From Algibacter amylolyticus (GTDB lineage: Bacteria > Bacteroidota > Bacteroidia > Flavobacteriales > Flavobacteriaceae): DNA of 64,000 nucleotides. Below, piece by piece: positions 3,282 to 57,756 of this stretch; the first letter of the stretch is position 1; each line of letters opens with the position of its first letter. A model generated the notes under the pieces. The model was not told the origin of the DNA. It did no database searches and saw only the letters and a program-made list of their open reading frames with translations. Made by a program: the position numbers and the translations under genes. The stretch spans positions 124,001-188,000 of the forward strand of contig NZ_JACHGE010000002.1 in NCBI RefSeq assembly GCF_014202225.1, written 5' to 3'.

Positions 3282-3364
3282 GGGCGTTACCACAAGGGTC
3301 GCGCTTTCACTACTCGCTCCTCCTTAGGTCGGGAGCTCAAACAGGCCGTTCAATCGCTAACGCA
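3282..3364 (+). repeat. Interspersed structured repeat, copy 1 (type A)
   Basis: Begins GGGCGTTACC and ends CGCTAACGCA. Terminal inverted repeat GCGTTA/TAACGC, an inner hairpin ACC..GGT next to GGTCGCG, and a second hairpin GCTCC..GGAGC followed by GAGCTCAAACAGGCCGTTCA. It lies in the 258-nt gap between two minus-strand genes. Closely related to copies at 30221 and 39987, and more distantly to those at 20281, 26311, 51244 and 57663. Confidence 0.85.
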
Positions 3365-3441
3365 GGTGTTTGCTATCACTTTTGCTTTGGTTAAAGGGAT
3401 GGCTTGTTTGCGGTTTTATGTTATAATATTAAAAGAGATTC

Positions 3442-4587
3442 TTAGCTTAATTTTCTTTTTAAAACCTTAGCTGCTCTTGTATAACCACTACTACCGCCAT
3501 CAACAAAATGGATGTGTTTAGCATTTCTATTTTGTACATAACACGACATAATGCTTCGGTTACTAACATGAATGCCATAAACAATGTGCTTGTTTTTTTC
3601 TAAACCATCAAGAAAGGTGGTTAGCAATTTTCTTTGTTTAGATGTTCCAGAAATTACCATATTTATTCGCCCATCTATAACAAGAATATCCGATAGTTGC
3701 GTTAGCTCTTTTAAATACTTTCTACCGGTTTTATTGGGTAAGTAATAAAAGTTGCCAATAAGTCCAGTAAGCCAAACCTTTAAAAAGTTTCTAACTCCAA
3801 ACTTTTTATTGCTTGCCTTTAGTTCGGTCTTTATTTTTTTATAATTAAAATTCAGTTTTAATTTTGGTACAGAAATGGGATTTCTGTTTTTTAAAGGGCC
3901 ATAAAGTTCATCTGTTTTTTCTAATATGCTTTTAAAAATAGGAGCTTGGTCGGGTTCGTTTGTAGCACTAATTAACAACGACACCACTTCGTTGGAGTTT
4001 TCTGGTGGCGGAATTTTATTCCAGCGACATTCCATACCATCTAAATCTAATACGTCTGTTTGCTTGTTTAAATTATCAACTACAGCGTCTTTAGATTTTA
4101 TAAGGTTTTCGGCAAAATGTAAACCGTTGCCTAGTACAACAGGAATAGTAAGTAATCTGTTAATGCTTGCCTTGGTTATTTTTAATTCCTGATTGTTTTG
4201 GTAAACTTGAGATATAGGAACATGCCCAACTCTTAAATAAATATCAAATTCTTTTTTAATGTTTTCTTGGTGCAAAATTAAAGCCTCCATAATGTCATGT
4301 AGTAAAACAGTAGGGATTAATAATGTTGCACCATCGCCACCAAAGAAAAAAGGAATATCTATGGATTGTTTTTTTGCAATGTTTAATGCGGCAACAATAC
4401 TACCGGTTGCTATTAGGTTTACTAGTTCCGATAGGCCTTTTTGAACCGACACCGTGGAGCCTTTTATATCGGTAATAACAATAGACCAATTATTAGGAAT
4501 TTGTTTAAAAAGCTCTGGTTTTGAAAGTAATTTTGTTACAGGTTCTTTATAATTTGTAAGATTGGTATAAAAAAAAGTATCTTCCAT
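3442..4587 (-). CDS. DUF3095 family protein (class III cyclase-like)
   Basis: 381 residues matching DUF3095: ITDIKGSTVSVQKG near residue 40 and the signature PFFFGGDGATLLIP near residue 100, followed by VGHVPISQVY. The N-terminal half resembles the class III nucleotide-cyclase fold (DIKGST is the position of the metal-binding Asp), but catalytic activity has not been established for the family. There is no signal peptide or membrane segment. It may be the last member of the light-stress island, being 145 nt downstream of phrB on the same strand, but an independent promoter is possible. Family call confident, function open. Confidence 0.85.
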   Translation of the reverse strand: MEDTFFYTNLTNYKEPVTKLLSKPELFKQIPNNWSIVITDIKGSTVSVQKGLSELVNLIATGSIVAALNIAKKQSIDIPFFFGGDGATLLIPTVLLHDIMEALILHQENIKKEFDIYLRVGHVPISQVYQNNQELKITKASINRLLTIPVVLGNGLHFAENLIKSKDAVVDNLNKQTDVLDLDGMECRWNKIPPPENSNEVVSLLISATNEPDQAPIFKSILEKTDELYGPLKNRNPISVPKLKLNFNYKKIKTELKASNKKFGVRNFLKVWLTGLIGNFYYLPNKTGRKYLKELTQLSDILVIDGRINMVISGTSKQRKLLTTFLDGLEKNKHIVYGIHVSNRSIMSCYVQNRNAKHIHFVDGGSSGYTRAAKVLKRKLS

Positions 4588-4732
4588 ATTAGCCTTATTT
4601 CAAAACCATTTTAATTTGTAAATTAATTTGACGTCATGAGTTTTTCAAAATAATTAATTTTCGGTTTTTGTTTCATTAACGCTGCAACGAAGTACGGCAT
4701 TTTTTATAACAAACTAAATATTAAGTGGAAAC

Positions 4733-6037
4733 TTAATTTAATGCAGCTTTATAAGTATCTAAACAACGTTCTCTGGCAAATTTATGCTCCACAATTGGTT
4801 TTGGGTAGGCTAATTCTTGAAAATCTGGTACCCATTGTTTTATGTAATTAAGGTCTTTATCAAACTTTTGAATTTGGGTTGTTGGATTAAATATCCTAAA
4901 ATATGGCGAAGCATCAACACCGCTGCCAGCAACCCATTGCCAATTACCAACGTTACTTGCCATGTCGTAGTCGTGCAGTTTTTCGGCAAAATAAGCTTCG
5001 CCCCAGCGCCAATCTATAAGTAAGTGTTTGCAAAGAAAACTACCAACTAGCATTCTTACTCTATTATGCATAAAACCGGTTTGGTTAAGTTGGCGCATAC
5101 CAGCATCAACAAGAGGATAGCCTGTTTTACCTTCGCACCACGCTTTAAATTCGGTTTCGTTGTTGCGCCATTCAATACGATCATATTTGGGTTTAAAACT
5201 ATCTGTTTTAGTATGTGGAAAGTGCCAAAGGATTTGCGTAAAAAATTCACGCCAAATCAGTTCTTGCCAAAATATTTCGTTTTTTTCTGCTATGGCTTTC
5301 TTTACCATTTTCCTAACACTTACTGTTCCGAAACGTAAATGCGGACCAAGTCTAGACGTGCTGTCTTGGGCAGGAAAATTACGCGTGTTTTCGTACTCTT
5401 GAATAAGTGTTGGTGTTACCGTATATGGTGCTATGTCCTGACTGGATTTTTTAAAACCAATATCCGATAAACTTAGGTTTGGTAACCTAGAGTGTTTTAT
5501 CAAATTATCCAGATATGATTTTGTATAATAAATTTCTAAATCTTTAGGGTTGAACGTCTGTTTCCAGAGCTTCATGTATGGTGTGTAAACCATGTAAGGA
5601 TCGCCATCTTTTTTAACAATCTCATCTTTTTCAAAAATAACTTGATCTTTAAAGGTTTTAAATGCAATGTTATGTTTGGCTAAAAATGTTTCTATTTGTT
5701 CATCACGCTCTTTGGCATATGGCTCATAATCGTGGTTAGTATAAACAGTTTCAATACTGTATTCTTCAGCTAAATCTTTATAAATATCTATGGGTTTGCC
5801 ATGATATATTGCTACACTACTGTTATGATCGTCTTGCAAAGTAGAGCGCATGTCTTGCAACGTGTCATGTATAAAGGTTACTCTAGCATCATCTTCCGGT
5901 AGTTTATCCAGGATTTCTGAATCGAAAATAAAAATTGGTAGTACAGGGTTATTAGATTTTAGGGCTTCAAAAAAGCCCACATTGTCATCCAATCTTAAAT
6001 CGCGCCTAAACCAGAAAATATTTACTTTTTTACTCAT
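4733..6037 (-). CDS. phrB: Deoxyribodipyrimidine photolyase (class I CPD photolyase)
   Basis: 434 residues. Repairs cyclobutane pyrimidine dimers using blue light and FAD. The N-terminal photolyase alpha/beta domain starts with NIFWFRRDLRLDDN and the C-terminal FAD-binding domain holds GYPLVDAGMRQL, HNRVRMLVGSFL, IDWRWGE and DYDMASNVGNWQWVAGSG. The two Trp of NWQW/DWRW and the Asn of ASNVGNW occupy the expected electron-transfer and flavin-N5 positions of class I enzymes. Length is slightly short for the class (about 470) but all motifs are intact. It lies 111 nt downstream of the SRPBCC gene, the last close-packed gene of the island. Confidence 0.93.
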   Translation of the reverse strand: MSKKVNIFWFRRDLRLDDNVGFFEALKSNNPVLPIFIFDSEILDKLPEDDARVTFIHDTLQDMRSTLQDDHNSSVAIYHGKPIDIYKDLAEEYSIETVYTNHDYEPYAKERDEQIETFLAKHNIAFKTFKDQVIFEKDEIVKKDGDPYMVYTPYMKLWKQTFNPKDLEIYYTKSYLDNLIKHSRLPNLSLSDIGFKKSSQDIAPYTVTPTLIQEYENTRNFPAQDSTSRLGPHLRFGTVSVRKMVKKAIAEKNEIFWQELIWREFFTQILWHFPHTKTDSFKPKYDRIEWRNNETEFKAWCEGKTGYPLVDAGMRQLNQTGFMHNRVRMLVGSFLCKHLLIDWRWGEAYFAEKLHDYDMASNVGNWQWVAGSGVDASPYFRIFNPTTQIQKFDKDLNYIKQWVPDFQELAYPKPIVEHKFARERCLDTYKAALN

Positions 6038-6148
6038 TAAATGTTTTAATTTTTATGTTTTTTGCTGCAACGGGTTATTTTGTTTTAAAGACTTTATTGC
6101 GGTGCCGTTACAATTAAAATGCTATTTTAACTAGGGGTTCTCGGTTAC

Positions 6149-6610
6149 CTAGTATTTTCCAAATAATTCTTCCAGTTTTGTTGTTCTGTAACTAAAAATC
6201 TCTTCTAATTTCGGTTTAACTAAAATTGGGTGCACCAATTGCCCAAGTAATCCAAAGGGTACTTTATAATCTATAATGTCTTCCATTTCTACACCACCAT
6301 CAATTTCTTTAATAAAATGTTTATGGTGCCATAGTGCATAGGGACCAAAACGTTGCTCGTCAACAAAATAATGCTTGTCTACGCTGTGTGTAATTTCGGT
6401 TACCCATTTTGTTTTTATGCCTAAAACAGGTGTAACAATGTATTGTATTATTTGGCCAGCAAACATGGGTCTATCGGCTCCAGTTAAGATATGAAATCCC
6501 ATATAATCTGGTGTTATAGTTTTTAAATTTTTTGGGTTGGATAAAAACTCCCAAGCTGTATCAATACTTATTGGTAGGTTTTGTTTTTTATGTAGTCTGT
6601 ATATTTTCAT
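6149..6610 (-). CDS. SRPBCC-family (START/cyclase-like) protein
   Basis: 153 residues with the SRPBCC ligand-binding fold: LPISIDTAWEFLSNPKNLK at the N-terminus, ITPDYMGFHIL, and GGVEMEDIIDYKVPFGLLG followed by a C-terminal helix ending REEIFSYR-like (LEEIFSYRTTKLEELFG). Such proteins commonly bind hydrophobic ligands and are recurrent neighbours of photolyase genes in Bacteroidetes and Proteobacteria. It begins 3 nt after the tspO stop, so the two are cotranscribed. The substrate is unknown. Confidence 0.85.
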   Translation of the reverse strand: MKIYRLHKKQNLPISIDTAWEFLSNPKNLKTITPDYMGFHILTGADRPMFAGQIIQYIVTPVLGIKTKWVTEITHSVDKHYFVDEQRFGPYALWHHKHFIKEIDGGVEMEDIIDYKVPFGLLGQLVHPILVKPKLEEIFSYRTTKLEELFGKY

Positions 6611-6613
6611 TTC

Positions 6614-7075
6614 TTAATTATTTAATAATATATAGCCATTTAGAGATGTGGCAATACAAATCCAAATTAAATAGGGGATTATTAAAAGTGTTTTAGCACC
6701 TAAATCTTTTTTGTAAATTATAGTGAAGCTGATAATAACTAAAGTAAGCGCTATTATGGTAATAAAGCCAACCAACACAAAATGTTGTGCGAAAAAAATA
6801 TAGTTCCATATAATATTTAAGACGAGCTGAATAGCGAAAAGCGCAAGTGTATTTACATGCGGGAATTGTTTATATAAATAGGCCATATAAACCGAAAAAC
6901 AGATCATTATGGTTGTCCAAGCTACACCAAAAACCCAGCCTGGTGGTGTCCAAGGTGCTTGGTTTAAATTTGTATACCAATCGGATTTTGGTCCATTGCC
7001 CATTAACCAACTGCCTATTGCTAGTGCACCAAAATTAATAATTAAGTATATTATAAAATATTTAAGCAGCTTCAT
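6614..7075 (-). CDS. tspO: TspO/MBR family tryptophan-rich sensory protein
   Basis: 153 residues and five predicted membrane helices. The hallmark segment NQAPWTPPGWVFGVAW is present, as are the aromatic-rich helices and NIIWNYIFF. TspO proteins bind porphyrins and, in bacteria such as Rhodobacter, affect responses to light and oxygen. Placement among photolyase and GTP cyclohydrolase genes fits a light/tetrapyrrole role here (inference). Its 5' end overlaps the Lacal_2735 gene by 14 nt and its stop is 3 nt before the SRPBCC start, so it is inside a close-packed operon. Confidence 0.92.
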   Translation of the reverse strand: MKLLKYFIIYLIINFGALAIGSWLMGNGPKSDWYTNLNQAPWTPPGWVFGVAWTTIMICFSVYMAYLYKQFPHVNTLALFAIQLVLNIIWNYIFFAQHFVLVGFITIIALTLVIISFTIIYKKDLGAKTLLIIPYLIWICIATSLNGYILLNN

Positions 7076-7238
7076 TTTTGAGCAGGTTTATTTGTTTAGC
7101 AATTTCCTGAGCTTCAGCATATTTATCATCACTAGCAGACCTGTTTATTGATGATAATGAGTGCCACTCTTTCATCAGCTTTTTAAATTTGTCTTCTAAT
7201 TTCTCCTTTTTTGATTTCTTTTTGAATAATCCGAACAT
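7062..7238 (-). CDS. Lacal_2735 family small protein
   Basis: A 58-residue protein read from the ATG at 7238. The sequence MFGLFKKKSKKEKLEDKF and then SSINRSASDDKYAEAQEI matches the short helical Lacal_2735 family of Flavobacteria. It has a basic, probably helical N-terminus and no Cys. The function is unknown. It overlaps the tspO start by 14 nt and follows glutathione peroxidase by 5 nt, which supports it as a real operon member. It is too short for most automatic ORF cut-offs. Confidence 0.8.
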   Translation of the reverse strand: MFGLFKKKSKKEKLEDKFKKLMKEWHSLSSINRSASDDKYAEAQEIAKQINLLKNEAA

Positions 7239-7243
7239 AGTTT

Positions 7244-7780
7244 TTATTTTAAGTGTTTAGTAATTTTAGAGCTTAATGGGTTTATGGTTGGTAAAAAATA
7301 GTCTATTAAATCGCCATTTGGACCTACTAAATATTTTTGGAAATTCCATTTCACCGACGAGCTATTAACACCATTATTAATCACTTTAGTTAACCAACCA
7401 TATAGCGGGTGTTTGTTTTTTCCTTTTACCTTAATTTTTTCTGTTATTAAAAAAGAAACCCCATAATTAGTTTCGCAAAAAGACTTTATTTCTTCTTCAC
7501 TGTTAGGTTCTTGGTTTCCAAATTGATTACAAGGAACACCAATTATTTCCAGTTGGTCTTTGTATTTGTTATATAGGGTCTGTAAATCTTTATACTGGGG
7601 AGTAAAACCACACTTAGAGGCAACATTTACAAATAAAATATGTTTATCCTTAAAATGTAATAAGTTGATTGGTTTTGAATTTATGGCATTAATTTTAATA
7701 TCATAAATGGAATCAATCTTCATTTTTGTGGGTTTAGCTTTAATACAAAATGTCGCTAAAAATGCTTTGAGCGTATTCAT
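7244..7780 (-). CDS. Glutathione peroxidase family thiol peroxidase
   Basis: 178 residues. Reduces peroxides, in bacteria usually with thioredoxin as donor. Active-site motif VNVASKCGFTPQY has a Cys (about residue 57) in place of selenocysteine, then GVPCNQFGNQEP and VKWNFQKYLVGPNG with the catalytic-tetrad Gln/Trp/Asn. The resolving Cys is probably in SFCETNYG or PCNQFG. The first 20 residues lie before the conserved fold; an internal Met (MKIDSIYDI, at 7723) is an alternative start, while 7780 leaves 3 nt to the upstream SDR stop. Consistent with oxidative-stress defence in the light island. Confidence 0.92.
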   Translation of the reverse strand: MNTLKAFLATFCIKAKPTKMKIDSIYDIKINAINSKPINLLHFKDKHILFVNVASKCGFTPQYKDLQTLYNKYKDQLEIIGVPCNQFGNQEPNSEEEIKSFCETNYGVSFLITEKIKVKGKNKHPLYGWLTKVINNGVNSSSVKWNFQKYLVGPNGDLIDYFLPTINPLSSKITKHLK

Positions 7781-7783
7781 AAG

Positions 7784-8467
7784 TTATATTTTAAAACTAA
7801 CAATACCACAGTCCATTTGAAATATTTGACCAGAAATAGAAGCACAACTATCTGATAAAAGAAACACTGCCATTTCTGCCACTTCTTCTGGATTTAAAAA
7901 CTTTTTAAGAGGATGACGTTCTGTGATATTTTCAATCATCTTGTCGTTTCGTAAAAGTTTAGAGGCTAGTTCCGTATTAGTTACTGTTGGTGCAATGGCG
8001 TTAATACGAATGGTTGGTGCTAACTCTGCGCCTAAGGATTTAACTAAACCCTCAACACCCGATTTAGCAACTGCTATACTCGCGTGATAGGGCATACCTA
8101 ATTTTGCCGCAACTGTGCTAAAAAGTACGATAGAAGGTTGGTTGCCATTTTTTAAAATGGGAAGATACTTTTGAATAACTTTTACAGCACCAAGTACATT
8201 GATTTCAAAATCGCTTTTAAAATCATCAATACTTAATCTTGAAATAGGTTTTAAATTGATGCTACCAGGACAATACACAAGTCCGTCGGCTTGTTCAATA
8301 TTGGGTAATTCATCATTTATTACATCGCACGAATGGTGAGTTAAGTGGTTGTGCGATATTTCGGGAGTACTTCTGCTAATGTTTATAACACGGCAGGATA
8401 TTAATAGTTTATCTATTAAAGCTTTTCCAATGCCCTTGCTTCCACCAATTACAATTATTGTTTTCAT
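7784..8467 (-). CDS. SDR-family protein lacking the catalytic tyrosine
   Basis: 227 residues, Rossmann fold: GGSKGIGKAL at the N-terminus (cofactor glycine motif), a truncated NAG-type region (LVYCPGSINL) and IRINAIAPTVTNTELA. In place of the YxxxK active site it reads SIAVAK, so the residue four before the Lys is Ile. A Tyr occurs only eight residues before the Lys. SDRs in photolyase clusters often carry HAS(V/I)AAAK-like motifs, so this may be a family trait. Oxidoreductase chemistry is doubtful; a nucleotide-binding or non-classical role is possible. It lies between small paralogue 2 and glutathione peroxidase in the island. Confidence 0.88.
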   Translation of the reverse strand: MKTIIVIGGSKGIGKALIDKLLISCRVINISRSTPEISHNHLTHHSCDVINDELPNIEQADGLVYCPGSINLKPISRLSIDDFKSDFEINVLGAVKVIQKYLPILKNGNQPSIVLFSTVAAKLGMPYHASIAVAKSGVEGLVKSLGAELAPTIRINAIAPTVTNTELASKLLRNDKMIENITERHPLKKFLNPEEVAEMAVFLLSDSCASISGQIFQMDCGIVSFKI

Positions 8468-8489
8468 GGTTTTCAGGGCATTTTATTTG

Positions 8490-8705
8490 CTATGGCCTGC
8501 CCTTTAGCCTTTTTTCAATTTTTTGTTTTATAACAGTCAATCGCTTCATTAGGTCCATTATTTCAGGATCTTTTTTCTCCTTATAAATGTCGTTTAATCC
8601 TAATATTAAGCTTTTTACTTCTCTAGATGATTCGATGCGCTCACTTGTAGTTTTAAAAGTGTGTCTTCGTTGCTCAAATTCTAAAGCTTTATCAATAATC
8701 TCCAT
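8490..8705 (-). CDS. Small helical protein, tandem paralogue 2
   Basis: 71 residues, unrecognised family. The pattern MEIIDKALEFEQRRHTF, SREVKSLILGLNDIYKEKKD and LMKRLTVIKQKIEKRLKG predicts two or three amphipathic helices with a strongly basic C-terminus. It is about 65% identical by eye to the gene at 8859-9077, so the pair arose by tandem duplication. The basic tail could contact nucleic acid, but nothing demonstrates that. It is 22 nt upstream of the SDR gene and probably cotranscribed. Confidence 0.7.
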   Translation of the reverse strand: MEIIDKALEFEQRRHTFKTTSERIESSREVKSLILGLNDIYKEKKDPEIMDLMKRLTVIKQKIEKRLKGRP

Positions 8706-8858
8706 AATTCTTTTTTAATCTTTAATCTTTTCTAATTGGTAGTATTGGATTACCAATTTTGCCAATATAGTAAATTATGGTAGATTAACTATTTTTATAT
8801 AGAATTATTAGAAAAATTTTAATACTTATTTGCAAATTATATATGAAATCTTTACTTT

Positions 8859-9077
8859 TTATAAAAGTTTACCTTTAAGTCGGCGTTCAATCTTTCTTTT
8901 TATTACGGTTAAACGTTTCATGATATCCATAATTTTATCGTCTTTTTTTACCTTATAAATTTCATTTAAATCTAAAATTAAGGCTTTCGCTTCTCTAGAA
9001 AGTTTTACACGATCGCTGGTAGATAAAGATCTCATTTTTCGTTGTTCAAATTCTATTGCTCTGTCTATTAATTCCAT
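8859..9077 (-). CDS. Small helical protein, tandem paralogue 1
   Basis: 72 residues, sister of the 8490-8705 gene: MELIDRAIEFEQRKMRSL, SREAKALILDLNEIYKVKKD, IMKRLTVIKRKIERRLKG. The two copies are colinear without gaps, diverging mainly around residues 14-25. It starts 4 nt after the folE stop, so it is in the folE transcript. The 153-nt gap before paralogue 2 contains an ATTGGTA/TACCAAT stem-loop but no T tract. Function unknown. Retention of two copies in a photolyase cluster suggests a light-stress role (inference). Confidence 0.7.
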   Translation of the reverse strand: MELIDRAIEFEQRKMRSLSTSDRVKLSREAKALILDLNEIYKVKKDDKIMDIMKRLTVIKRKIERRLKGKLL

Positions 9078-9081
9078 GTTT

Positions 9082-9777
9082 TTAGCTGTTTATATGGTTT
9101 TGAAATTCTGTGATTTTTTCGGGGGTATTAAATGTTCCGCCATAAAAAGCGGTTACCGTAGATGATGTATCATCTTTTATGCCTCTAGACGACACGCACA
9201 AATGTTTTGCTGAAATAATTACGGCCACATTGTTAGTCTCTAGAATGGTTTTTAATTCGTTTGCAATTTGATTTGTTAAACGTTCTTGTACTTGCGGACG
9301 TTTAGCATAATATTGTACGATTCTATTTAGTTTTGATAAGCCAATAACCTTTCCTGATGAGATGTAAGCAACATGCGCTTTTCCAATAATAGGTACAAAA
9401 TGATGCTCGCAATTGGAATAAAATGTAATATCTCGTTCCACTAGCATTTGATTGTATTGATATTTGTTATCAAATAATGCTATTTTAGGTTTATTTTCCG
9501 GATTTAAACCAGAAAAAATTTCGTCAATGTACATTTTGGCAACTCTTTGTGGTGTGCCTTTTAGGGAATCATCAGTTAAATCTAAGCCCATAACATCCAT
9601 AATTTCTTCAAATAAAATGGAAATGCGTTCTTTTTTTTCGGAATCAGAAAGTTTAAAGGCATCTCGCTTCATGGGGGTTTCTAACCTAGTAAATAAGTGG
9701 TCGTCTCCAATGTCTTTTAAAGTAAAACCATTTAAGTTATTACCATTTTTTGTTATTATTAGCTTTTCTGCTTCCAT
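9082..9777 (-). CDS. folE: GTP cyclohydrolase I
   Basis: 231 residues. Converts GTP to 7,8-dihydroneopterin triphosphate, the first step of tetrahydropterin and folate synthesis. Zinc ligands are visible in FYSNCEHHFVPI (Cys123, His125/126) and KHLCVSSRGI (Cys194), with GTPQRVAKMY and PQVQERLTNQIA also canonical. The first 45 residues are an extension seen in other family members. Within a photolyase island its product could supply a pterin (MTHF-type) antenna, as folE paralogues do in other light-inducible clusters (inference). Whether the genome has a second folE for housekeeping cannot be seen here. Confidence 0.95.
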   Translation of the reverse strand: MEAEKLIITKNGNNLNGFTLKDIGDDHLFTRLETPMKRDAFKLSDSEKKERISILFEEIMDVMGLDLTDDSLKGTPQRVAKMYIDEIFSGLNPENKPKIALFDNKYQYNQMLVERDITFYSNCEHHFVPIIGKAHVAYISSGKVIGLSKLNRIVQYYAKRPQVQERLTNQIANELKTILETNNVAVIISAKHLCVSSRGIKDDTSSTVTAFYGGTFNTPEKITEFQNHINS

Positions 9778-20280: not shown

Positions 20281-20383
20281 GGGCGCTACCACGAGGGTCG
20301 GGCGTTCGGCAGTCGCTTTTTTGTGTTGCATATGTGCAACAACACAAAAAGAGCTTCAACAAATGCCTCAATCCCTAGCGCAC
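20281..20383 (+). repeat. Interspersed structured repeat, copy 2 (long-hairpin variant)
   Basis: Begins GGGCGCTACCACGAGGGTCG and ends ATCCCTAGCGCACC. The terminal pairing GCGCTA/TAGCGC carries a compensatory change relative to GCGTTA/TAACGC. The central hairpin of type A copies is replaced by a longer one (TTTTTGTGTT..TGCA/TGCA..AACACAAAAA, plus 20325-20352). Located between two convergent genes. Confidence 0.85.
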
Positions 20384-26310: not shown

Positions 26311-26401
26311 GGGCGTGCCCCTTTGGGTCGGGCTTTACATTACAATTCCTCGCACTTCCTTCCAGTCAGGCTGTGGGATTTTCATTGCAATCCCTCACGC
26401 A
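26311..26401 (+). repeat. Interspersed structured repeat, copy 3 (type B)
   Basis: Begins GGGCGTGCCC and ends AATCCCTCACGCA. Terminal pairs GCGTG/CACGC show a compensatory change at the fifth pair compared with GCGTT/AACGC. First hairpin CCC..GGG. Middle part (TCCTCGCAC..GGCTGTGGG) matches copies at 51244 (reverse) and 57663. It ends 17 nt before the methyltransferase start, so it is inside that gene's leader. Confidence 0.85.
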
Positions 26402-26417
26402 CTAAATAGAAACTATC

Positions 26418-28293: not shown

Positions 28294-29127
28294 TTAATTA
28301 ACGGATAGTAAAGTGATGTCATAAATAAGGACAGAACCTCCTTCAATTCCTGCGGCTCCTGTATTTCCGTAAGTTAAATGTGCTGGAATATAGAGTGTGC
28401 CGCTTCCGCCTTCATTAAAATAGGTTATACCTTCAGCTAGTCCTGAAAGTATTGAGTTTAACTGTACGTCTGTAGCTGTTGTGCTTTCAAAAAACACTTC
28501 TCCATCTGTAAAATAGCCTTTAATCGTAAATGTTACATTATCTGTTAATGTAGGTTGCTCTCCATCTCCAGGTTCATCAATCGTGAAAAATAAACCGGTA
28601 CCAGATTGTTGCGCTGTTAACTCGTTTTCTATTAAATAATTTTGAATTTCTGCTTCATTTTCCGTTTTGTAATTAACATAAATAAGTTCGATATCGAAAA
28701 TAATTACAGAACCAGCAGGAATACTTCCGTTAGCGCTACTTCCATAGGCTAAATGTGCTGGGATAATAAGAGTACCACTTCCGCCTTCTTTAAAATAAGT
28801 TATACCTTCACTAAAACCAGGTATTAAACTGTTTAAAAAAGTAAAGGAAACGCCTTCTTCAGGGCTTTCATCAAACACAGTACCGTCTGTTAAATAGCCC
28901 TTGTATGCTACTTTAACTCTATCGGTTGTTAATGGGGTAACACCAGTTCCTGGGTTATCTATTATGTAATATAAGCCACTGTTACTAGATTGTACAGTTA
29001 AATTATTAGTGGCAATATATGCCTGAATTTCTTGTTCGTTTTCGCTAGTGTAGTCTTTTGGGGCATCGTCAGAACTACAAGCTGTAAATAAAATTACAGC
29101 AAGTACCATACATAGTTTTTTCATCAT
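28294..29127 (-). CDS. Secreted lipoprotein with two FKBP-type peptidyl-prolyl isomerase domains
   Basis: 277 residues. Lipoprotein signal with lipobox FTACSS (start at 29127 or at the next Met, 29124). Domain 1 (about residues 60-150) is canonical: VAYKGYLTDGTVFDES and PAHLAYG carry the active-site Tyr, Phe-Asp and Tyr. Domain 2 (about residues 185-275) aligns with TIKGYFTDGEVFFES and PAHLTYG. The Tyr of the YKGY position is Ile and the Asp of FDES is Phe, so it is probably inactive for isomerisation. It would fold proteins in the periplasm or outer envelope. Single gene with its own terminator. Confidence 0.92.
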   Translation of the reverse strand: MMKKLCMVLAVILFTACSSDDAPKDYTSENEQEIQAYIATNNLTVQSSNSGLYYIIDNPGTGVTPLTTDRVKVAYKGYLTDGTVFDESPEEGVSFTFLNSLIPGFSEGITYFKEGGSGTLIIPAHLAYGSSANGSIPAGSVIIFDIELIYVNYKTENEAEIQNYLIENELTAQQSGTGLFFTIDEPGDGEQPTLTDNVTFTIKGYFTDGEVFFESTTATDVQLNSILSGLAEGITYFNEGGSGTLYIPAHLTYGNTGAAGIEGGSVLIYDITLLSVN

Positions 29128-30220: not shown

Positions 30221-30300
30221 GGGCGTTTTAACACGCTTTCACTACTCGCTCCCTCCAAAAAAGTCGGGGAGCTCAAACAGGCCGTTCAATCGTTAACGCA
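30221..30300 (+). repeat. Interspersed structured repeat, copy 4 (type A, first hairpin missing)
   Basis: Begins GGGCGTTTTAACAC and ends ATCGTTAACGCA. Terminal GCGTT/AACGC. Hairpin 1 (ACC..GGT) seen in other copies is deleted. Hairpin 2 has six perfect pairs (GCTCCC/GGGAGC). The tail GAGCTCAAACAGGCCGTTCA is identical to copy 1. Sits between two minus-strand genes. Confidence 0.85.
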
Positions 30301-39986: not shown

Positions 39987-40073
39987 GGGCGCTACCACAA
40001 GGGTCGGGCTTTTACTACTCGCTCCTTCCTAAAAAGTCAGGGAGCTCAAACATACCGTTCAATCCCTAGCGCG
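39987..40073 (+). repeat. Interspersed structured repeat, copy 5 (type A)
   Basis: Begins GGGCGCTACCACAAGGGTCG and ends ATCCCTAGCGCG. Terminal GCGCTA/TAGCGC is the same compensatory variant as copy 2. Hairpin 1 ACC..GGT; hairpin 2 GCTCC..GGAGC. Between two convergent genes (the permease stop is 10 nt away). Confidence 0.85.
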
Positions 40074-51067: not shown

Positions 51068-51085
51068 AATTAATAAATTTAAATG

Positions 51086-51243: not shown

Positions 51244-51333
51244 TGGGTTAGGGATTGCAGTGGAAAACCCACAGCGAGGTACGAAGCGAGGACTTGAAGC
51301 GTAAAGCCCGACCCGAGGTACGAGGGTAACCCC
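51244..51333 (-). repeat. Interspersed structured repeat, copy 6 (type B, reverse orientation)
   Basis: Minus strand begins GGGGTTACCCTCG and ends GCAATCCCTAACCC. Terminal GGGTTA/TAACCC shows a compensatory change at the second pair (C-G to G-C). Hairpin 1 ACCC..GGGT. Middle CCTCGCTTCG..GCTGTGGG matches copies 3 and 7. The only copy on the minus strand; lies between two minus-strand genes, so it is in a transcribed orientation. Confidence 0.85.
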
Positions 51334-51350
51334 AAAATTAAACTAAAAAA

Positions 51351-52052
51351 TTAATGACAATCGATACCGTTAGTAATCATATTGTAAACCGGAGCAGGAG
51401 AGAGGAAGGGAATTCCAAGACCTAAACCCCGAATTATAAATAGTGCACCTATTATAACTACAAAAACTGGTATTATGTTTTGTATGCGTTGTCTTGCTTT
51501 ACCTTTTAAAAAGTGGCTAAAGTAAATTGCAGTGGTCATTAAAGGGACGGTACCAAGGCCAAAAACACTCATGTATAAACTACCGTTTAAGGCATTACCG
51601 CCAGCAATGGCTGCAAATACCGCCATGTAAACTAAACCACAAGGGAGAAAGCCATTTAAAAAACCAATGGTTAAAAAGGTGTCCATTGTTTTTTTCTTTA
51701 AAGCAGAACCTAAAGCAGATTTTACTTTAGATATTAGGTTGTAAATAGGTTTAGAAAAGTTGTATTTGTTAAATGCTTTTTGCGGTATTAGTACTACTAA
51801 AATCATTAAAACCCCTATAATAATAGAGAGTTGTTGTTGGAAACCAAATATAAAAAGCCCTTTGCCAATTAGCCCGAAAATTAAACCTATTAGGCTGTAG
51901 GCTAGTAATCTGCCAAAATGGTAAATGGTAATTTGCGATACTTTTTTTAACTCGTTTGTGCGATCTACTGGCAACATAAAAGCTATGGGGCCGCACATAC
52001 CTACGCAGTGAAAACTTCCTAATAGCCCTAATATAAACGCCGAAAGTAGCAT
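51351..52052 (-). CDS. Sulfite exporter TauE/SafE-like (CcoA/DsbD-like) membrane protein
   Basis: 233 residues, six predicted membrane helices. The N-terminus GLLGSFHCVGMCGPIAFMLP carries an HCVGMCGP metal-binding-like motif, as in cbb3-associated SafE/UreH-like proteins. Last gene of the cbb3 oxidase operon in this window, 1 nt after fixH. Members of this family next to cco genes are thought to deliver copper for oxidase assembly (family knowledge; not shown here). Good family call, activity uncertain. Confidence 0.85.
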   Translation of the reverse strand: MLLSAFILGLLGSFHCVGMCGPIAFMLPVDRTNELKKVSQITIYHFGRLLAYSLIGLIFGLIGKGLFIFGFQQQLSIIIGVLMILVVLIPQKAFNKYNFSKPIYNLISKVKSALGSALKKKTMDTFLTIGFLNGFLPCGLVYMAVFAAIAGGNALNGSLYMSVFGLGTVPLMTTAIYFSHFLKGKARQRIQNIIPVFVVIIGALFIIRGLGLGIPFLSPAPVYNMITNGIDCH

Positions 52053-52053
52053 A

Positions 52054-52500
52054 CTAATAATTTATAGATTCTTTAAAAAGATAAGATTTTCCGTTATATT
52101 GCCAATCTATTTTAATGTTCCAACGACCATCTACCAAACGATTGTCAGGTATGAGCAAATTTGAATTAGACAAAGAGATAGCAGTCTCAAAGTCTAGTTG
52201 TTTGTTAGATGGTCTATATAGGAACAATTTTCCTTTAATATTTTTGTAATCGAAGGTATCGGGAAATTGTATTACCAAGCCCTCGTTTGTTTTCTTATAA
52301 CTAATATTTTCGTTTAAAGTTTTAGCGGTTTCTAGTTTATTTATATCGTCTTGAAATTGTAATTCTTCGGCGTAATAATCTTCGCTAACCAAATCATGGT
52401 TGTATTTGCTATTTACACTCATGTTTATAACAAAGTACATTATAAACGAAATAAAGGCTATAAAAGCAATAACAATTCCGGTTCCCCAATTAATTTTCAT
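52054..52500 (-). CDS. fixH: FixH family protein
   Basis: 148 residues. One N-terminal membrane helix (GIVIAFIAFISFIMYFVINM), then SKYNHDLVSEDYYAEELQFQ, the FixH signature (DLVxxxYYxxE), and a beta domain. FixH assists cbb3 oxidase maturation, probably copper handling with CcoI. It lies 62 nt downstream of ccoG and 1 nt before the TauE/SafE gene. Length typical. Confidence 0.9.
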   Translation of the reverse strand: MKINWGTGIVIAFIAFISFIMYFVINMSVNSKYNHDLVSEDYYAEELQFQDDINKLETAKTLNENISYKKTNEGLVIQFPDTFDYKNIKGKLFLYRPSNKQLDFETAISLSNSNLLIPDNRLVDGRWNIKIDWQYNGKSYLFKESINY

Positions 52501-52561
52501 AATTTTCTTTTTTAGTAATTTGTTTTTTGTTGCTGGTTATTTGTCTCTAATTAACCATTAA

Positions 52562-53986
52562 CTATTTAAAACTCCGTGGGCCTAAAAAGTTAGCCGTAGT
52601 GGTTTCAATTAACTTATCGCCTTTGTAAACGCCAATTTTTATTTTATTTCTATCGCCAGATAATGCCGAATTATTAATTTCAATAAACAAGGTGCCTTCT
52701 GCCATACCTTGACTTGGTACAATAAAATCGTTACCAGTAGATACTAATTTTAATTCGCCTTTATGCGACATGAGTTTAAAGCTCACATCTTCAATGTCTT
52801 TAGATGTTTTATTTACTAATTTATAGGTGAAAACGTTACTTATAATGTTGTTCTCTTTATGCTCATATAGTTGCCCAGGAAGTCTTAAAACATTAGCTTC
52901 CACATCGTTTCTTAAAAATAACATACCAACCAATAGACCAGTTAAAATAGCTAAAACCGCTATATAACCTTTAATTCTAGGTGTTAATTTAAAAGGTGTT
53001 TTGTTTTCTATGTTTTCTTCACTAGCATAACGAATTAAACCTTTTGGTAAATTAATGCTTTCCATAATATGGTCGCACTCATCAATACAAGCTGTACAGT
53101 TTACACATTCTAATTGTGTACCGTTTCTAATATCAATGCCAGTAGGGCAAACGTGTACACATTGCATACAATCTATACAATCGCCATGACCTAAAGCGTC
53201 TCGGTCTTCATTTTTTCTAAACTTTTTTCTACCATTTTCAGCTTCACCGCGTTTATGATCGTAAGCAACAACTATCGATTTTGTATCTAAAAGTGCACCT
53301 TGTAACCTTCCGTAAGGACAAGCTATAATACAAACCTGTTCTCTAAACCAAGCAAATACAAAGTAGAATACCGCTGTAAAAATTAGTAACGATATTAAGG
53401 TGCTTATGTTATTAAGAGGACCTTCAGAAATGTATTGAATTAATTTATCGCTACTAATTAAATAAGCCAGAAAAACGTTAGCAATAATAAAGGAGATTAA
53501 AACAAATATGACTGTTTTTAGTCCTTTTTTTCTAATCTTTTCGGCATCCCATTTTTGTTTGTCTAGTTTACGTTGTTTGTTTCTGTCGCCTTCAATCCAG
53601 TATTCTATTCGTCTAAAAACCATTTCCATAAAAATGGTTTGCGGGCAAATCCACCCGCAAAAAATACGTCCGAATGCTACCGTAAAAAGGGCTATAAAAA
53701 TAACACCAATTAACATGGATATTACAAACAAATGAAAATCTTGTGGCCAGAAAGGAAACCCGAAAATATTAAAACGGCGTTCCAAAACATTAAACATTAA
53801 AAACTGATTTCCATTTATTTTTACAAATGGCGCAAGTAGTAAAAATGCTAGTAAAATATAACTTACATATTTTCTATACTCGTAAAATTTACCACTTGGT
53901 TTTTTAGGAAATACCCAAGCGCGTTTACCTTCTTCGGTAATTGTACCAATCGAGTCTCTAAAGGTTTCGTTTTCTGGAGTTTCCAT
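52562..53986 (-). CDS. ccoG: cbb3 oxidase accessory protein CcoG (FixG-like ferredoxin)
   Basis: 474 residues. Four to five membrane helices at the N-terminus, the polyferredoxin motif GHGDCIDCMQCVHVCPTGID and TQLECVNCTACIDECDHI (two 4Fe-4S sites, about residue 265-300), then a C-terminal Ig-like domain (VSFKLMSHKGELKLVSTG). CcoG reduces Cu(II) for oxidase copper loading in other bacteria. Encoded between ccoP and fixH in operon order. Confidence 0.93.
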   Translation of the reverse strand: METPENETFRDSIGTITEEGKRAWVFPKKPSGKFYEYRKYVSYILLAFLLLAPFVKINGNQFLMFNVLERRFNIFGFPFWPQDFHLFVISMLIGVIFIALFTVAFGRIFCGWICPQTIFMEMVFRRIEYWIEGDRNKQRKLDKQKWDAEKIRKKGLKTVIFVLISFIIANVFLAYLISSDKLIQYISEGPLNNISTLISLLIFTAVFYFVFAWFREQVCIIACPYGRLQGALLDTKSIVVAYDHKRGEAENGRKKFRKNEDRDALGHGDCIDCMQCVHVCPTGIDIRNGTQLECVNCTACIDECDHIMESINLPKGLIRYASEENIENKTPFKLTPRIKGYIAVLAILTGLLVGMLFLRNDVEANVLRLPGQLYEHKENNIISNVFTYKLVNKTSKDIEDVSFKLMSHKGELKLVSTGNDFIVPSQGMAEGTLFIEINNSALSGDRNKIKIGVYKGDKLIETTTANFLGPRSFK

Positions 53987-54043
53987 GTTTTTTTATTATG
54001 CTACAAGATTATAAAAGGTTGCAGGTATTGTTTATTAAATCTA

Positions 54044-54988
54044 TTATTCTACAGTAATAATATTTTCTGTTTTAGTTTCCATAGCCTCTGTAGGTACTTC
54101 GCTTGCAGGAGCATTTTCATCTACCCAAATATCGCCTTCGGCAGGTTTAGGATTTGCTGGTATAGTGCCTTGCAATGTTAATACGTAACTTGCCACTTGT
54201 GCCATTTGTGCAGGTTTTAATTGTGCTTTCCACGCAATCATACCTTTACCAGAACGTCCACCTTCAGATATGGTTTTAAAAACATTTTTAATACCACCAC
54301 CTAATAACCAATGATCGTCTGTTAGGTTTGGTCCAATACCACCTCCACCATCTGCCATGTGACAAGCAACACAATTACTTTGGAAAATGGCTTGTCCAGC
54401 TTTTACATCGGCAGCATCAGTTAACACGGTTACCGTATTAAAATCTACTAAATCTTTAGCTGTTTTTTTATACGCTTCTAAAGCAATTCTAGCGTCGGCT
54501 AATTCTGTTTCTAATTCGTCTATTTGTGTATAGCCATCAAATACGTGGAATCTCAATAAATAAACGGCAGCAAAAATTATAGAAATGTAAAAAGAATACA
54601 CCCACCATGGTGGTAAGTTATTATCTAGCTCTTTAATACCATCGTAATTATGATCTAGGATAATTTCCGTTTCTTCTTCTATTGGTTTCTGACCAAGAAG
54701 TTTTTGGTACGTCTCTTTTAACCAAGTAAATTTAATGGTATTTTCTTTTTCTGCTAAAAAACGAGCTTTACCAGCTTCATCTAATTTATGAAGCATCACA
54801 TTTTCTAAAGCACCAATAATAGCTTCGATAGCAATTAATATTAATAATACTAAAAGCAGAAAGAGTAAAACTGCTGGATACTCAACAAATGCTGGCTTGT
54901 CTCCTGAATCTATAAAGAATTCTACGGCTCCAAAAATAATAAAGAATGCTACTGGAACACGAATCCAGGATGGAACTAATTGTCTCAT
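54044..54988 (-). CDS. ccoP: cbb3 oxidase subunit III CcoP with a single haem c motif
   Basis: 314 residues. N-terminal membrane helices (FLLLVLLILIAIEAIIGALE and VYSFYISIIFAAVYLLRF) and one c-type haem site, FQSNCVACHMADGGGGIG (CxxCH about residue 205), with distal Met in SGKGMIAWK. Proteobacterial CcoP has two haems; the single-haem form is common in Bacteroidetes. It transfers electrons from donor cytochromes to CcoN. Overlaps ccoQ by 4 nt. Confidence 0.93.
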   Translation of the reverse strand: MRQLVPSWIRVPVAFFIIFGAVEFFIDSGDKPAFVEYPAVLLFLLLVLLILIAIEAIIGALENVMLHKLDEAGKARFLAEKENTIKFTWLKETYQKLLGQKPIEEETEIILDHNYDGIKELDNNLPPWWVYSFYISIIFAAVYLLRFHVFDGYTQIDELETELADARIALEAYKKTAKDLVDFNTVTVLTDAADVKAGQAIFQSNCVACHMADGGGGIGPNLTDDHWLLGGGIKNVFKTISEGGRSGKGMIAWKAQLKPAQMAQVASYVLTLQGTIPANPKPAEGDIWVDENAPASEVPTEAMETKTENIITVE

Positions 54989-55170
54989 AATATATCGTCG
55001 TTTTGGTTGTCTAATGGCATGTTACTTACCTTGTCTATATAATCTTTTTTAGCGGTTATTACCCACCAAAATAGAACTACAAAAAAGGTGAAAAAGATAA
55101 TTAAAGAAATCACTGGGTAAATCTCGATTCCTGCAATACTATCCATATGGTTTTTTACAAATTTCAACAT
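54985..55170 (-). CDS. ccoQ: cbb3 oxidase subunit CcoQ
   Basis: 61 residues: one membrane helix (VISLIIFFTFFVVLFWWVIT) followed by a polar tail, the CcoQ/FixQ layout. It stabilises the oxidase in other species. Located between ccoNO and ccoP with a 4-nt overlap on the ccoP side and 21 nt from ccoNO. No further motif can be seen, so the assignment rests on size, topology and place. Confidence 0.85.
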   Translation of the reverse strand: MLKFVKNHMDSIAGIEIYPVISLIIFFTFFVVLFWWVITAKKDYIDKVSNMPLDNQNDDIL

Positions 55171-55191
55171 GACTTTTAAAATTTTAGTTGA

Positions 55192-57384
55192 TTAATTTTG
55201 TGCTGTTTCTCCTTTAATATCTGTTCCTAAGCGTTGTAAATACGCTATAAGAGCTACAATTTCTCGGTTTTTCATTTCTATAAATGGTTCACCGTTATCC
55301 GAAGCGTATTTTTTATCCGCTTCATATGTTTTTGTAAAATCAGGATCGGCATGAAGGTTCTCTTCAATTTTAGCACCTTGCTCTAACATACTTTGTTGTG
55401 CATTGGCTATTTCGTCATCTGTATAAGGAACACCAAGAGTAACCATAGCTTCCATTTTTTTCTCGGTCATCGATTTATCTAACTCACTGCTAGAACCTGT
55501 AATTAACCAAGGGTAACGTGGCATTATAGAACCCGATGATGTACTTTGCGGATCGTACATATGGTTAAAGTGCCAGTTATCTGAGTACTTACCACCAATT
55601 CTGTGTAAATCTGGTCCAGTACGTTTACTACCCCAAAGGAATGGATGGTCGTAAACAAACTCGCCGGCTTTACTGTACTCGCCGTAACGTTCTACCTCAC
55701 TTCTAAATGGGCGAATCATTTGCGAATGGCAACCTACACAGCCTTCACGGATATAAATATCTCGACCTTCTAACTCTAAAGGAGAATATGGTTTTACACT
55801 TGCTATAGTTGGTATATTAGATTTTACAACAATAGTCGGTACAATTTGTACAAGACCACCAATTAAAATAGCTATAGTAGCGCCTATAGTTAATTGTATT
55901 GGTTTACGCTCAATCCACGTGTGCCAACCTTCATTTGCAGTACGTTTTTTAGATACGCGCTCTAAGGCTGCAGCTTCAGCTAATTCGTCTTCAACTTTGC
56001 TTCCTTTTTTAATAGTAGCAATAACGTTAAATACTAAAATTAGCATACCGGTTAAGTATAAGGTACCACCAATAGCACGCATCCAATACATTGGCATAAT
56101 TTCGGTTACGGTTTCTAAAAAGTTACCATATGTTAAAGTACCATCTGGATTAAATTGTTTCCACATACTAGCTTGTGTAAATCCGGCAACATACATAGGT
56201 AAAGCATACATAATAATACCTAAAGTACCTATCCAAAAGTGTAAGTTAGCAAGTGCTAAAGAGTGTAGTTTGGTTTTAAATAATCTTGGTACTAAATAGT
56301 AAATCATACCAAAGGTTAAAAACCCATTCCAAGCTAAGGCACCAACGTGCACGTGTGCAATAATCCAATCGGTAAAGTGCGCAATAGCGTTTACATTTTT
56401 AAGCGAAAGCATTGGCCCCTCAAACGTTGCCATACCGTAACCTGTAATTGCTACAACCATAAATTTTAAAACGGGATCTGTACGTACTTTATCCCAAGCA
56501 CCACGTAGGGTTAATAATCCGTTTATCATACCACCCCACGATGGCATTAATAACATTATAGAGAAGGCAACACCTAAATTTTGTGCCCATTCTGGTAAAG
56601 CTGTGTATAATAAGTGATGTGGTCCTGCCCAGATATAAATAAATATTAACGACCAGAAATGCACAATAGATAATCTATAAGAATACACAGGTCTGTTAGC
56701 TGCCTTAGGAACAAAGTAATACATAAGTCCTAAAAACGGCGTCGTTAAAAAGAAGGCTACCGCATTGTGTCCGTACCACCATTGTACTAAAGCATCTTGA
56801 ACCCCAGCGTAAACCGAGTAACTTTTCATGGCGCTAACAGGAAGCTCCAAACTATTAAAGATATGAAGTACAGCAACAGTTACAAACGTAGCAATGTAAA
56901 ACCAAATGGCCACATATAAATGGCGCTGTCTTCTTTTAAGCATGGTACCTATTAAATTCCATCCAAAAATTACCCAAACTAAAGCAATAGCAATATCAAA
57001 AGGCCATTCTAGTTCGGCATATTCTTTAGAGCTTGTATACCCTAAAGGAAGTGTAATAGCGGCTCCTACAATAATAAGTTGCCAACCCCAAAAATTTAAT
57101 TTACTTAAAAGGTCGCTAAACATTCTGGCCTTTAGTAAACGCTGTGTGGAGTAATACACACCTGCAAAAATAGCGTTACCAACAAAGGCAAAAATAACAG
57201 CATTGGTGTGTAGCGGTCTTAATCTGCCAAAACTTAACCACGAAATACCATCTGTTAAGTTTGGGAAAAGAAACATAAACGCCAATAGCAATCCTACAAG
57301 CATACCCACAACGCCCCAAAGCATGGTGGCGTAAATGAAGTTTTTAACGATTTTATTATCGTAATGAAATTGTTGCATTTTCAT
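55192..57384 (-). CDS. ccoNO: cbb3 oxidase subunits I and II fused (CcoNO)
   Basis: 730 residues (start 57384 or 57378). Residues to about 480 are CcoN with 12-14 membrane helices and the haem/copper-binding His (PLHTNAVIFAFVGNAIFAGV, QWWYGHNAVAFFLTTPFLGL, HFTDWIIAHVHVGALAWNGF). The rest is CcoO, anchored by another helix, with haem c site REGCVGCHSQMIRPFRSE (about residue 548). The fused form is typical of Bacteroidetes. Terminal oxidase with high oxygen affinity; operon driven from an Fnr-type promoter 5' of ccoS. Confidence 0.95.
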   Translation of the reverse strand: MKMQQFHYDNKIVKNFIYATMLWGVVGMLVGLLLAFMFLFPNLTDGISWLSFGRLRPLHTNAVIFAFVGNAIFAGVYYSTQRLLKARMFSDLLSKLNFWGWQLIIVGAAITLPLGYTSSKEYAELEWPFDIAIALVWVIFGWNLIGTMLKRRQRHLYVAIWFYIATFVTVAVLHIFNSLELPVSAMKSYSVYAGVQDALVQWWYGHNAVAFFLTTPFLGLMYYFVPKAANRPVYSYRLSIVHFWSLIFIYIWAGPHHLLYTALPEWAQNLGVAFSIMLLMPSWGGMINGLLTLRGAWDKVRTDPVLKFMVVAITGYGMATFEGPMLSLKNVNAIAHFTDWIIAHVHVGALAWNGFLTFGMIYYLVPRLFKTKLHSLALANLHFWIGTLGIIMYALPMYVAGFTQASMWKQFNPDGTLTYGNFLETVTEIMPMYWMRAIGGTLYLTGMLILVFNVIATIKKGSKVEDELAEAAALERVSKKRTANEGWHTWIERKPIQLTIGATIAILIGGLVQIVPTIVVKSNIPTIASVKPYSPLELEGRDIYIREGCVGCHSQMIRPFRSEVERYGEYSKAGEFVYDHPFLWGSKRTGPDLHRIGGKYSDNWHFNHMYDPQSTSSGSIMPRYPWLITGSSSELDKSMTEKKMEAMVTLGVPYTDDEIANAQQSMLEQGAKIEENLHADPDFTKTYEADKKYASDNGEPFIEMKNREIVALIAYLQRLGTDIKGETAQN

Positions 57385-57395
57385 AATTATAATTA

Positions 57396-57581
57396 TTAAT
57401 CTTTTTTGGTTAGTATTGTTTTTTCTGTTTTGTTTTTAATTAATTCGTCTTCAAATAACATGCGTACAGAGGGCGTGTAACTATCGTCAAATTGTCCTTT
57501 TTTAACAGCAATTATAAAGGCTATAAAAAAACATATGGCCACTACAATGCTTACCGCAAGTAAAATATATATAACACTCAT
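57396..57581 (-). CDS. ccoS: cbb3 oxidase maturation protein CcoS
   Basis: 61 residues. One membrane helix (SVIYILLAVSIVVAICFFIAF) then AVKKGQFDDSYTPSVRMLFE, the CcoS signature (GQFDDxxTPxxRMLxED). Needed for cofactor insertion into cbb3 oxidase. First gene behind the Fnr-type promoter; 11 nt before ccoNO. Small but unmistakable. Confidence 0.93.
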   Translation of the reverse strand: MSVIYILLAVSIVVAICFFIAFIIAVKKGQFDDSYTPSVRMLFEDELIKNKTEKTILTKKD

Positions 57582-57601
57582 ACCTATTAGAAGTTATGGT
57601 T

Positions 57602-57644
57602 CAAAAGTACTTTTATACTGTTTTTTAAAAGATGATATTTATCA
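57602..57644 (-). promoter_or_regulatory. Fnr-type site and -7 box of the ccoS-ccoNOQP operon
   Basis: Minus strand: TGATAAATATCA (plus 57633-57644), 23 nt, TACTTTTG (plus 57602-57609), the same -7 box sequence and spacing as at hemN. The start codon of ccoS follows 20 nt later. Site and box geometry indicate activation from about -41.5. Confidence 0.8.
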
Positions 57645-57662
57645 TGTTTCATCATTTTATTT

Positions 57663-57756
57663 GGGCGTTACCTCAAAAAAGAGGTCGGGCTTTCCGTTAC
57701 AAGTCCTCGCACCTCCTGCGTCGGGCTGTGGGCTTTCCTCTTCAATCCCTAACGCA
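57663..57756 (+). repeat. Interspersed structured repeat, copy 7 (type B)
   Basis: Begins GGGCGTTACCTC and ends CAATCCCTAACGCA. Terminal GCGTTA/TAACGC, hairpin 1 of five pairs (ACCTC/GAGGT), second hairpin CGCA/TGCG, then GGGCTGTGGGCTTTCC as in copies 3 and 6. Located between ccoS promoter and ccoI; antisense to both genes. Confidence 0.85.

Follow-up and report, generated by a model that had tools for sequence, protein, structure and literature searches.

We found that a short intergenic repeat in a 64,000-nucleotide stretch of the genome of a marine Algibacter (the window; C2:124001-188000 of genome G000, which has 4.35 Mb in 25 contigs) has fixed ends and one exchangeable inner hairpin, the core, and that different cores stand at the same orthologous sites in related species. 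By sequence comparison, the Rfam family Flavo-1 (RF01705) is one version of this wider modular repeat. The presence of different cores at fixed orthologous sites is the new point, and our literature search, with most subscription journals outside its reach, returned no description of the Flavo-1 repeat as a modular element. G000 was compared within a set of 40 genomes, itself included, made up of 10 Algibacter genomes (G000, its sister species G002 and the other congeners among G001-G009) and 30 genomes of other genera.

Modular structure and relation to Flavo-1

A reading of the window from its letters alone (the sequence-only reading) had listed seven copies of one structured repeat. All seven are present at the listed positions to about one base, and all are indeed intergenic, none overlapping an open reading frame (ORF) of 80 amino acids or more. 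The outer pairings also agree with that description: copy 6 is changed on both sides at pair 2, copies 2 and 5 at pair 4, and copy 3 at pair 5. The inner side hairpin, ACC..GGT, varies coordinately as had been described, but copy 4 lacks it. What had been taken for one unit is instead a set of interchangeable modules.

The element is about 80 to 150 nucleotides (nt) long. Most copies have in common the ends TTT, the outer stem, the ACC..GGT side hairpin, a triplet helix, CTTT/CAAT and TAACGC, after which comes a tail, some 16 nt long and weakly conserved, with no conservation visible past it. The cores have distinct sequences and internal loops, and all of them close as hairpins. Core labels (T1 to T4 and T6) were assigned by simple pattern rules; T2 and T4 are alike, and some T4-like cores were scored as T2. 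With T2 and T4 taken as one, at least five core types stand on the common ends. The alignments make a unit of fixed ends (outer stem, side hairpin, triplet helix and short tail) with one exchangeable core well supported. On the Flavo-1 strand, which lies opposite to the originally described strand throughout, the element would fold as a three-way junction of the outer stem GCGTTA/TAACGC (with compensated variants), the side hairpin and a long arm that would begin at a GGG/CCC-type triplet, pass conserved internal loops and end in the core hairpin. The copies in the window are as follows, with strand given as the Flavo-1 strand.

Copy 1, 3282..3363, minus strand: core T2, triplet GCG/CGC, outer stem GCGTTA/TAACGC; core of identical type in G002.
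Copy 2, 20281..20381, minus strand: core T4, outer stem GCGCTA/TAGCGC, DNA fold z -3.0; core of identical type in G002.
Copy 3, 26311..26400, minus strand: core T3, outer stem GCGTG/CACGC; Flavo-1 match of 35.3 bits at 26322-26407 on the minus strand.
Copy 4, 30221..30299, minus strand: core T2, no side hairpin; within a stretch of about 2 kb that is unaligned in G002.
Copy 5, 39987..40072, minus strand: core T2; the G002 site has a 49-nt nested insert and the G007 site has core T3.
Copy 6, 51245..51335, plus strand (originally described strand minus): core T3, outer stem GGGTTA/TAACCC; Flavo-1 match of 24.7 bits.
Copy 7, 57663..57755, minus strand: core T3; Flavo-1 match of 32.8 bits.
Site 52501..52561, strand not applicable: element-free in G000 and G002, occupied in congeners.

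The sequence-only reading had called for a search of the whole genome and of related Flavobacteriaceae. Using a motif scanner built on the repeat, which recovers six of the seven window copies (copy 2 is missed), we obtained 30 matches scoring at least 10 in 400 kb of G000, where five Markov simulations gave an average of 0.4. Two of these 30 matches, without a known core and with a body longer than 150 nt, were afterwards removed as false. In 1.2 Mb of G000, 72 matches, of which two were dropped as false, gave 70 copies: 28 with core T3, 19 with T2, 18 with T1, four with T4 and one unclassified. By extrapolation, a genome would hold about 250 copies. Among relatives, the element is present in congeners and in other Bacteroidota. 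An exact 15-mer of the ends occurs in at least 118 stretches of genome contigs, at least 89 of them with Bacteroidota titles; the whole element was found in 80 of the 89 listed Bacteroidota stretches by the filtered scan and also in L161, L170 and L250. Only one of the 29 non-Bacteroidota stretches among the listed matches scores (L238, a Leptospiraceae bin). Titles of element-bearing stretches include Algibacter, Aquimarina, Polaribacter, Tamlana, Mariniflexile, Lutibacter, Flavobacterium, Bizionia, Pedobacter and a Chitinophagaceae bin. Carriage by phages was considered and rejected: the 15-mer is in 23 viral contigs among the matches listed, and the scanner finds the element in none of them.

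The sequence-only reading knew of no named family for the repeat. At the gathering threshold, Rfam gives no match in the whole window. At E<=5, copies 3, 7 and 6 match Flavo-1 below its gathering cut-off of 42 bits (model of 76 positions), and the other four copies, with T2 and T4 cores, are unreported. Elsewhere in G000, at least 77 places match RF01705 at E<=1e-3 and at least 41 are above the cut-off, with 150 of 1053 candidates scored. The family is matched in 26 of the 40 genomes, G000 included. When 13 further loci were run against Rfam, nine gave Flavo-1 matches, all nine on the strand opposite to the one originally described.

The alignments show that the repeat and Flavo-1 have their strand and helices in common, and they share the T1 core; matches above the gathering cut-off occur in G000, in congeners and at nine of the 13 further loci. 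On the other hand, the Rfam model fits the T1 core and leaves T3 cores below the cut-off (24.7 to 35.3 bits in the window), and the outer stem, the side hairpin and core exchange are absent from it. The model stops near the core-adjacent helix, whereas copies of the window type run on into the outer stem GCGTTA/TAACGC. Since the sequence extends past the end of the model in this way, the window repeat is a wider form of Flavo-1. Other ends (GAAGCTATTTCCCGC..GCGGGGCTA) are found on some copies, which are of the Rfam seed type. A match to the Rfam L19-Flavobacteria ribosomal leader (L019:1355-1382) lies near one Flavo-1 copy.

Different cores at orthologous sites

We compared ten orthologous sites, of which S1 to S3 came from the window region, S4 to S7 from the comparison with G007 and S8 to S10 from the T1-short family described below. 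More than one core was present among congeners at nine of the ten. When 3' ends and tails were compared, core-swapped orthologs scored a similarity of 9.66 (n=16), close to the 9.82 of same-core orthologs (n=11), compared with 3.27 for non-orthologs (n=324; 0 of 5000 permutations). Because part of the compared stretch is flank, this similarity shows that site and strand are the same. Rare end variants shared at S1 and S2 suggest, further, that the ends have a common ancestry. At S1 (copy 6), the rare TAACCC end is found in G000, G007 and G008, with core T3 in G000 and G008 and T2 in G007; no element was seen there in G004, G006 or G009. At S2 (52501..52561), four species have AATGC ends, with T1 in G006, G007 and G008 and T2 in G004, and G009 has an apparent remnant.

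At S3 (copy 7), G002, G004 and G009 have T3 and G008 has T2, while the G006 element is without a core and G007 holds half an element; deletion between the short direct repeats of a hairpin would be expected to cause such losses. Outer stems differ too at S4 and S7, through paired changes. The G007 core at S5 was labelled T2 in one comparison and left unlabelled by the script in the ten-site comparison. T1-short is the core of both G000 and G002 at S8, S9 and S10. At S8, the core is T4 in G006, G008 and G009; at S9, G006 has a core with the label T2 that resembles T4, and G008 and G009 are empty; at S10, G008 has T3, G006 has T6 and G009 has none. The S9 site is flanked by two genes, one with an anthranilate synthase I domain and the other with a glutamine amidotransferase domain, presumably trpE and trpG. 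The stop-to-start gap there is 1 nt in G008 and G009; in G000, G002 and G006 it holds the element and further sequence. The presence of the element at some orthologous sites and its absence at others shows that insertion or loss occurs.

A search for the T1-short loop, with up to two mismatches allowed, gave 27 matches in G000, two of which are one palindromic place (26 places in all), and 20 matches in G002. The other eight Algibacter genomes have three, one each in G001, G008 and G009 and none in the remaining five; the reversed-pattern control gave 0. Since congeners have other cores at S8 to S10, T1-short appears to have spread at least partly by replacement. A comparison of cores with ends inside the T1-short family was left out of account, its copies having been selected on their apical sequence. 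A 29-mer of the T3 core has 12 to 77 matches in each of the ten Algibacter genomes and eight in all 30 genomes of other genera, with 0 for the control.

Core type is equal in all 14 comparable orthologous copies of G000 and G002; by reading, seven of these differ by nested inserts or a replaced loop. Other palindromes are nested in repeat loops. Among them, CCTGCCTGCCGGCAGGCAGG and CCCTTCGACTACGCTCAGG are in loops of G000 or G002 but not of the other, without obvious duplication (for example L072-L083 and L321). In the orthologous T1 element at C2:253184 and G002:C15:225951, the stem is conserved and the species differ greatly in the loop, which is about 70 nt long.

Base pairing and the folded strand

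The sequence-only reading had proposed that base pairing is maintained in the repeat, and larger alignments bear this out. Across 21 pairs of 60 T3 copies in Flavo-1 orientation, 97.7% of cells were paired, compared with 91.9% after shuffling, and 58 cells had double changes, compared with 10.8 after shuffling and 2 to 7 in slid controls. When 820 column pairs were ranked in 92 distinct rows (T1, T3 and T6), the top seven were base pairs, of which six had been named beforehand and one (b10/e-12) was recognised afterwards. In 168 elements that were anchored without any pairing requirement, the triplet pairs hold in 164 to 167, the triplet itself being inside the anchors.

Which strand is folded was judged from pair intermediates. 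On the originally described strand, the inner pairs of T1 and T3 copies, which lie outside the anchors, have 18 A·C and 0 G·T intermediates. These came from stretches of the window genus and seven loci (two of Algibacter, four of one Aquimarina assembly and one of Flavobacterium). A binomial test of 18:0 gives 8e-6, which is only a guide because the copies are related. The outer pairs on the same strand again have A·C intermediates (6, with 0 G·T); two of the six are first-pair cases, for which nested palindromes can be misleading. Alignment A3, read on the Flavo-1 strand with one doubtful pair (2 A·C) omitted, has 19 G·U and 3 A·C. Since the intermediates are mostly G·U when read on the Flavo-1 strand, it is probable that a single strand folds, and probably this strand rather than the one that the sequence-only reading had used.

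Predicted folding of single copies as DNA gave less. Read on the Flavo-1 strand, copy 2 alone is conspicuous (z -3.0), with the other six at -0.6 to -1.8; on the described strand, copies 2 and 7 stand out (z -2.7 and -2.2). Folding energies are better on the Flavo-1 strand in six of the seven window copies, with small margins. Single-sequence folding being weak, the structural evidence is comparative, and on that evidence a base-paired structure is well supported.

Several results count against this account of the fold. Under a simple, crude tree null, the top seven pairs have E values of 0.08 to 2.8 and none is singly significant; thus, of the covariation looked for in a larger copy set, the ranking of base pairs at the top stands and is the covariation evidence, and significance of single pairs does not. 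Some covariation scores are raised by mixing of core types, because eight of the 21 copies classed as T6 were T2-like on a later recheck. The loci of the 18:0 count belong to Algibacter, a single Aquimarina assembly and a single Flavobacterium, so that few independent lineages stand behind it. At A3 columns 24/61, T3 has an invariant pair that is G·T on the described strand and therefore C·A when read on the Flavo-1 strand. The T6 pair intermediates are 3:3, unchanged when the T2-like copies are left out, and those of the triplet are 3 G·T to 2 A·C.

A proposed mobile hairpin and rival explanations

We lean, with modest confidence, towards the explanation that the repeat is a non-autonomous mobile hairpin element which acts as single-stranded DNA and spreads partly by core replacement. 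In its favour are the large number of copies, subfamilies restricted to certain lineages, constant ends on which cores are interchangeable, the core differences between orthologs, the palindromes within loops, and the biased pair intermediates of T1 and T3. The folded species would be single-stranded DNA, exposed for example during replication; the strand bias, together with the random orientation to genes given below, is what suggests this mechanism. Cores would be copied from element to element by recombination, by template switching or by some enzyme at the hairpin base. New insertions would occur more rarely than core copying, and effects on neighbouring genes would be by-products.

Some observations weigh against a mobile single-stranded element of this kind. 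Insertion appears slow, because G000 and G002 have 14 of 15 comparable copies in common, and no clean insertion footprint, target duplication or clean empty site emerged. Sites S8 to S10 were picked from a burst family, and without them six of seven sites carry several cores. That T1-short replaced other cores, and not the reverse, is suggested by its narrow distribution. Copy orientation has no significant bias with respect to GC skew or replication strand (p 0.18). Finally, the search for an enzyme came up empty: neither Y1_Tnp (PF01797) nor NF047646 is matched at E<=0.001 in the repeat-bearing genomes G005 and G007, and Flavo-1 is near none of 20 Y1 loci.

A stronger form of the idea, in which cores are transmissible modules that home into resident ends through a dedicated process on the folded single strand, is possible but rather doubtful. 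If it were true, a new core would sweep many fixed sites without new insertions, and dispersed hairpins would exchange cassettes, the element itself containing no transposase.

The repeat might instead be a functional structured RNA, with copies as RNA genes or 3' untranslated region elements (a small RNA, sRNA, or mRNA-end element), as Rfam files Flavo-1. Flavo-1 was listed as probably RNA and probably not cis-regulatory in Table 1 of Weinberg 2010 (PMC2864571), and, filed as an sRNA family with no known role, it is listed among the most abundant in a review (PMC9029176). Covariation, and wobbles that are mostly G·U on one strand, would suit an RNA. So would the closeness of copies to stop codons, with a median distance of 43 nt to flanking stops and 106 nt to starts. 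However, orientation relative to tandem genes is random (15 of 36), which argues against the repeat as part of an mRNA. In Flavobacterium psychrophilum, as described in part of PMC9723704, Flavo-1 matches seemed indistinctly sense or antisense to transcribed regions, and many lay outside them. Cores of unrelated sequence at one site among congeners, and the extrapolated number of copies per genome, also speak against an RNA, which we consider unlikely.

Relative to genes, 36 of the 70 copies lie between tandem, 21 between convergent and 13 between divergent genes, compared with 266 tandem, 58 convergent and 110 divergent background gaps of at least 120 bp (convergent enrichment, p 0.001). The gene calls here are simple ORFs, two copies overlap such ORFs, and the elements themselves lengthen gaps. 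A strong terminator was rejected as a candidate: there is no T-run after the outer stem, and one element lies between the same-strand anthranilate synthase I and glutamine amidotransferase genes, no terminator scan having been made. Elsewhere in the window, two 141-nt stretches (28295-28435 and 28670-28810) that are 71% alike start 375 nt apart within the ORF at 28294-29127.

An alternative of similarly low probability is that the repeats are old and largely immobile and undergo RecA-type gene conversion, so that the swaps are conversion tracts and subfamilies spread likewise. The copies common to G000 and G002 would fit this, as would ends that stay in place through swaps and the CTATCC found in many listed T3 copies of G007 where G000 copies mostly have CTTT. 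On the 3' side, however, only about 13 nt (CAATCCCTAACGC) are shared before unrelated flank, which is short for homologous recombination. Presence and absence of the element at orthologous sites shows insertion or loss, and the site-specific end variants at S1 and S2 are kept in swapped elements; both argue against conversion alone among immobile copies.

That the repeat is a REP element mobilised by a RAYT is very improbable. In likeness to REP/RAYT systems (PMC3733652 and PMC6006769, as far as their available text goes), it is a high-copy intergenic palindrome with a single-strand fold, near gene ends; it differs in being longer, in its three-way junction, in having neither GTAG nor CGTC at the foot and in lacking a partner transposase in two repeat-bearing genomes. 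RAYT-like domains occur in eight of the ten Algibacter genomes. At one of 30 Y1 loci (L047), the scanner placed an element about 1.4 kb away from the Y1 domain; it found none at the other 29. Against this, G005 (92% complete, 190 contigs) and G007 have 12 and 69 T3 matches with zero RAYT matches. No GTAG or CGTC tag, the foot tag by which PMC3733652 defines REP elements, was seen at the hairpin foot in the aligned copies. In addition, two RAYT-bearing Algibacter genes hold their own in-frame palindromes. RAYT mobilisation as a requirement was rejected in view of the two repeat-bearing genomes without a RAYT match and the 20 Y1 loci without Flavo-1. Bacteroidetes subclass 2.6 RAYTs, described as having atypical structures (PMC6006769, in part), remain a lead outside Algibacter.

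The one Y1_Tnp domain of G000 is inside an Eco57I-like methylase, where a Y1/RAYT-like domain lies in frame with Eco57I and TaqI_C domains (L031, G000:C2:314570-317782), and at the corresponding place the translations of four more Algibacter genomes (L040, L038, L041 and L054) look similar. In G009, G002 and G008 (L044, L056 and L047), coproporphyrinogen III oxidase (HemF; Pfam was run on L044 only) has a Y1/RAYT-like domain fused to its N side, and in-frame palindromes translated as GFKNLAG-like peptides join the two. At L035:1944-1988, a match to Acido-Lenti-1 RNA (35.5 bits, cut-off 37) lies beside an IS200-like transposase match, the genome being from another family within the same order.

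Classical MITEs have target-site duplications and a parental transposon that shares their ends. When ends were paired at distances of up to 6 kb in the searched stretches of G000, G002, G007, G008 and G009, no longer, autonomous version with an ORF was found, the 5'-end pattern having been rather insensitive; the one end pair reported was two neighbouring elements. Integron attC sites have the end order AAC...GTT. The repeat ends are GTTA...TAAC, reversed in order, and an attC site was therefore rejected. The BOX repeats of Streptococcus (boxA/boxB/boxC; PMC3049150), compared by their description in part of that paper, are likewise modular short intergenic repeats with ends, exchangeable inner modules and an RNA-like predicted fold. 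BOX varies mainly in the number of tandem boxB modules, whereas the Flavo-1 repeat swaps cores of unrelated sequence with pairing kept.

If Flavo-1 is a version of a core-exchanging mobile hairpin, sRNA counts and target searches that include it would need rethinking. Core replacement at fixed sites would offer a natural system for hairpin-DNA recombination in bacteria and a way to track lineage-specific sweeps.

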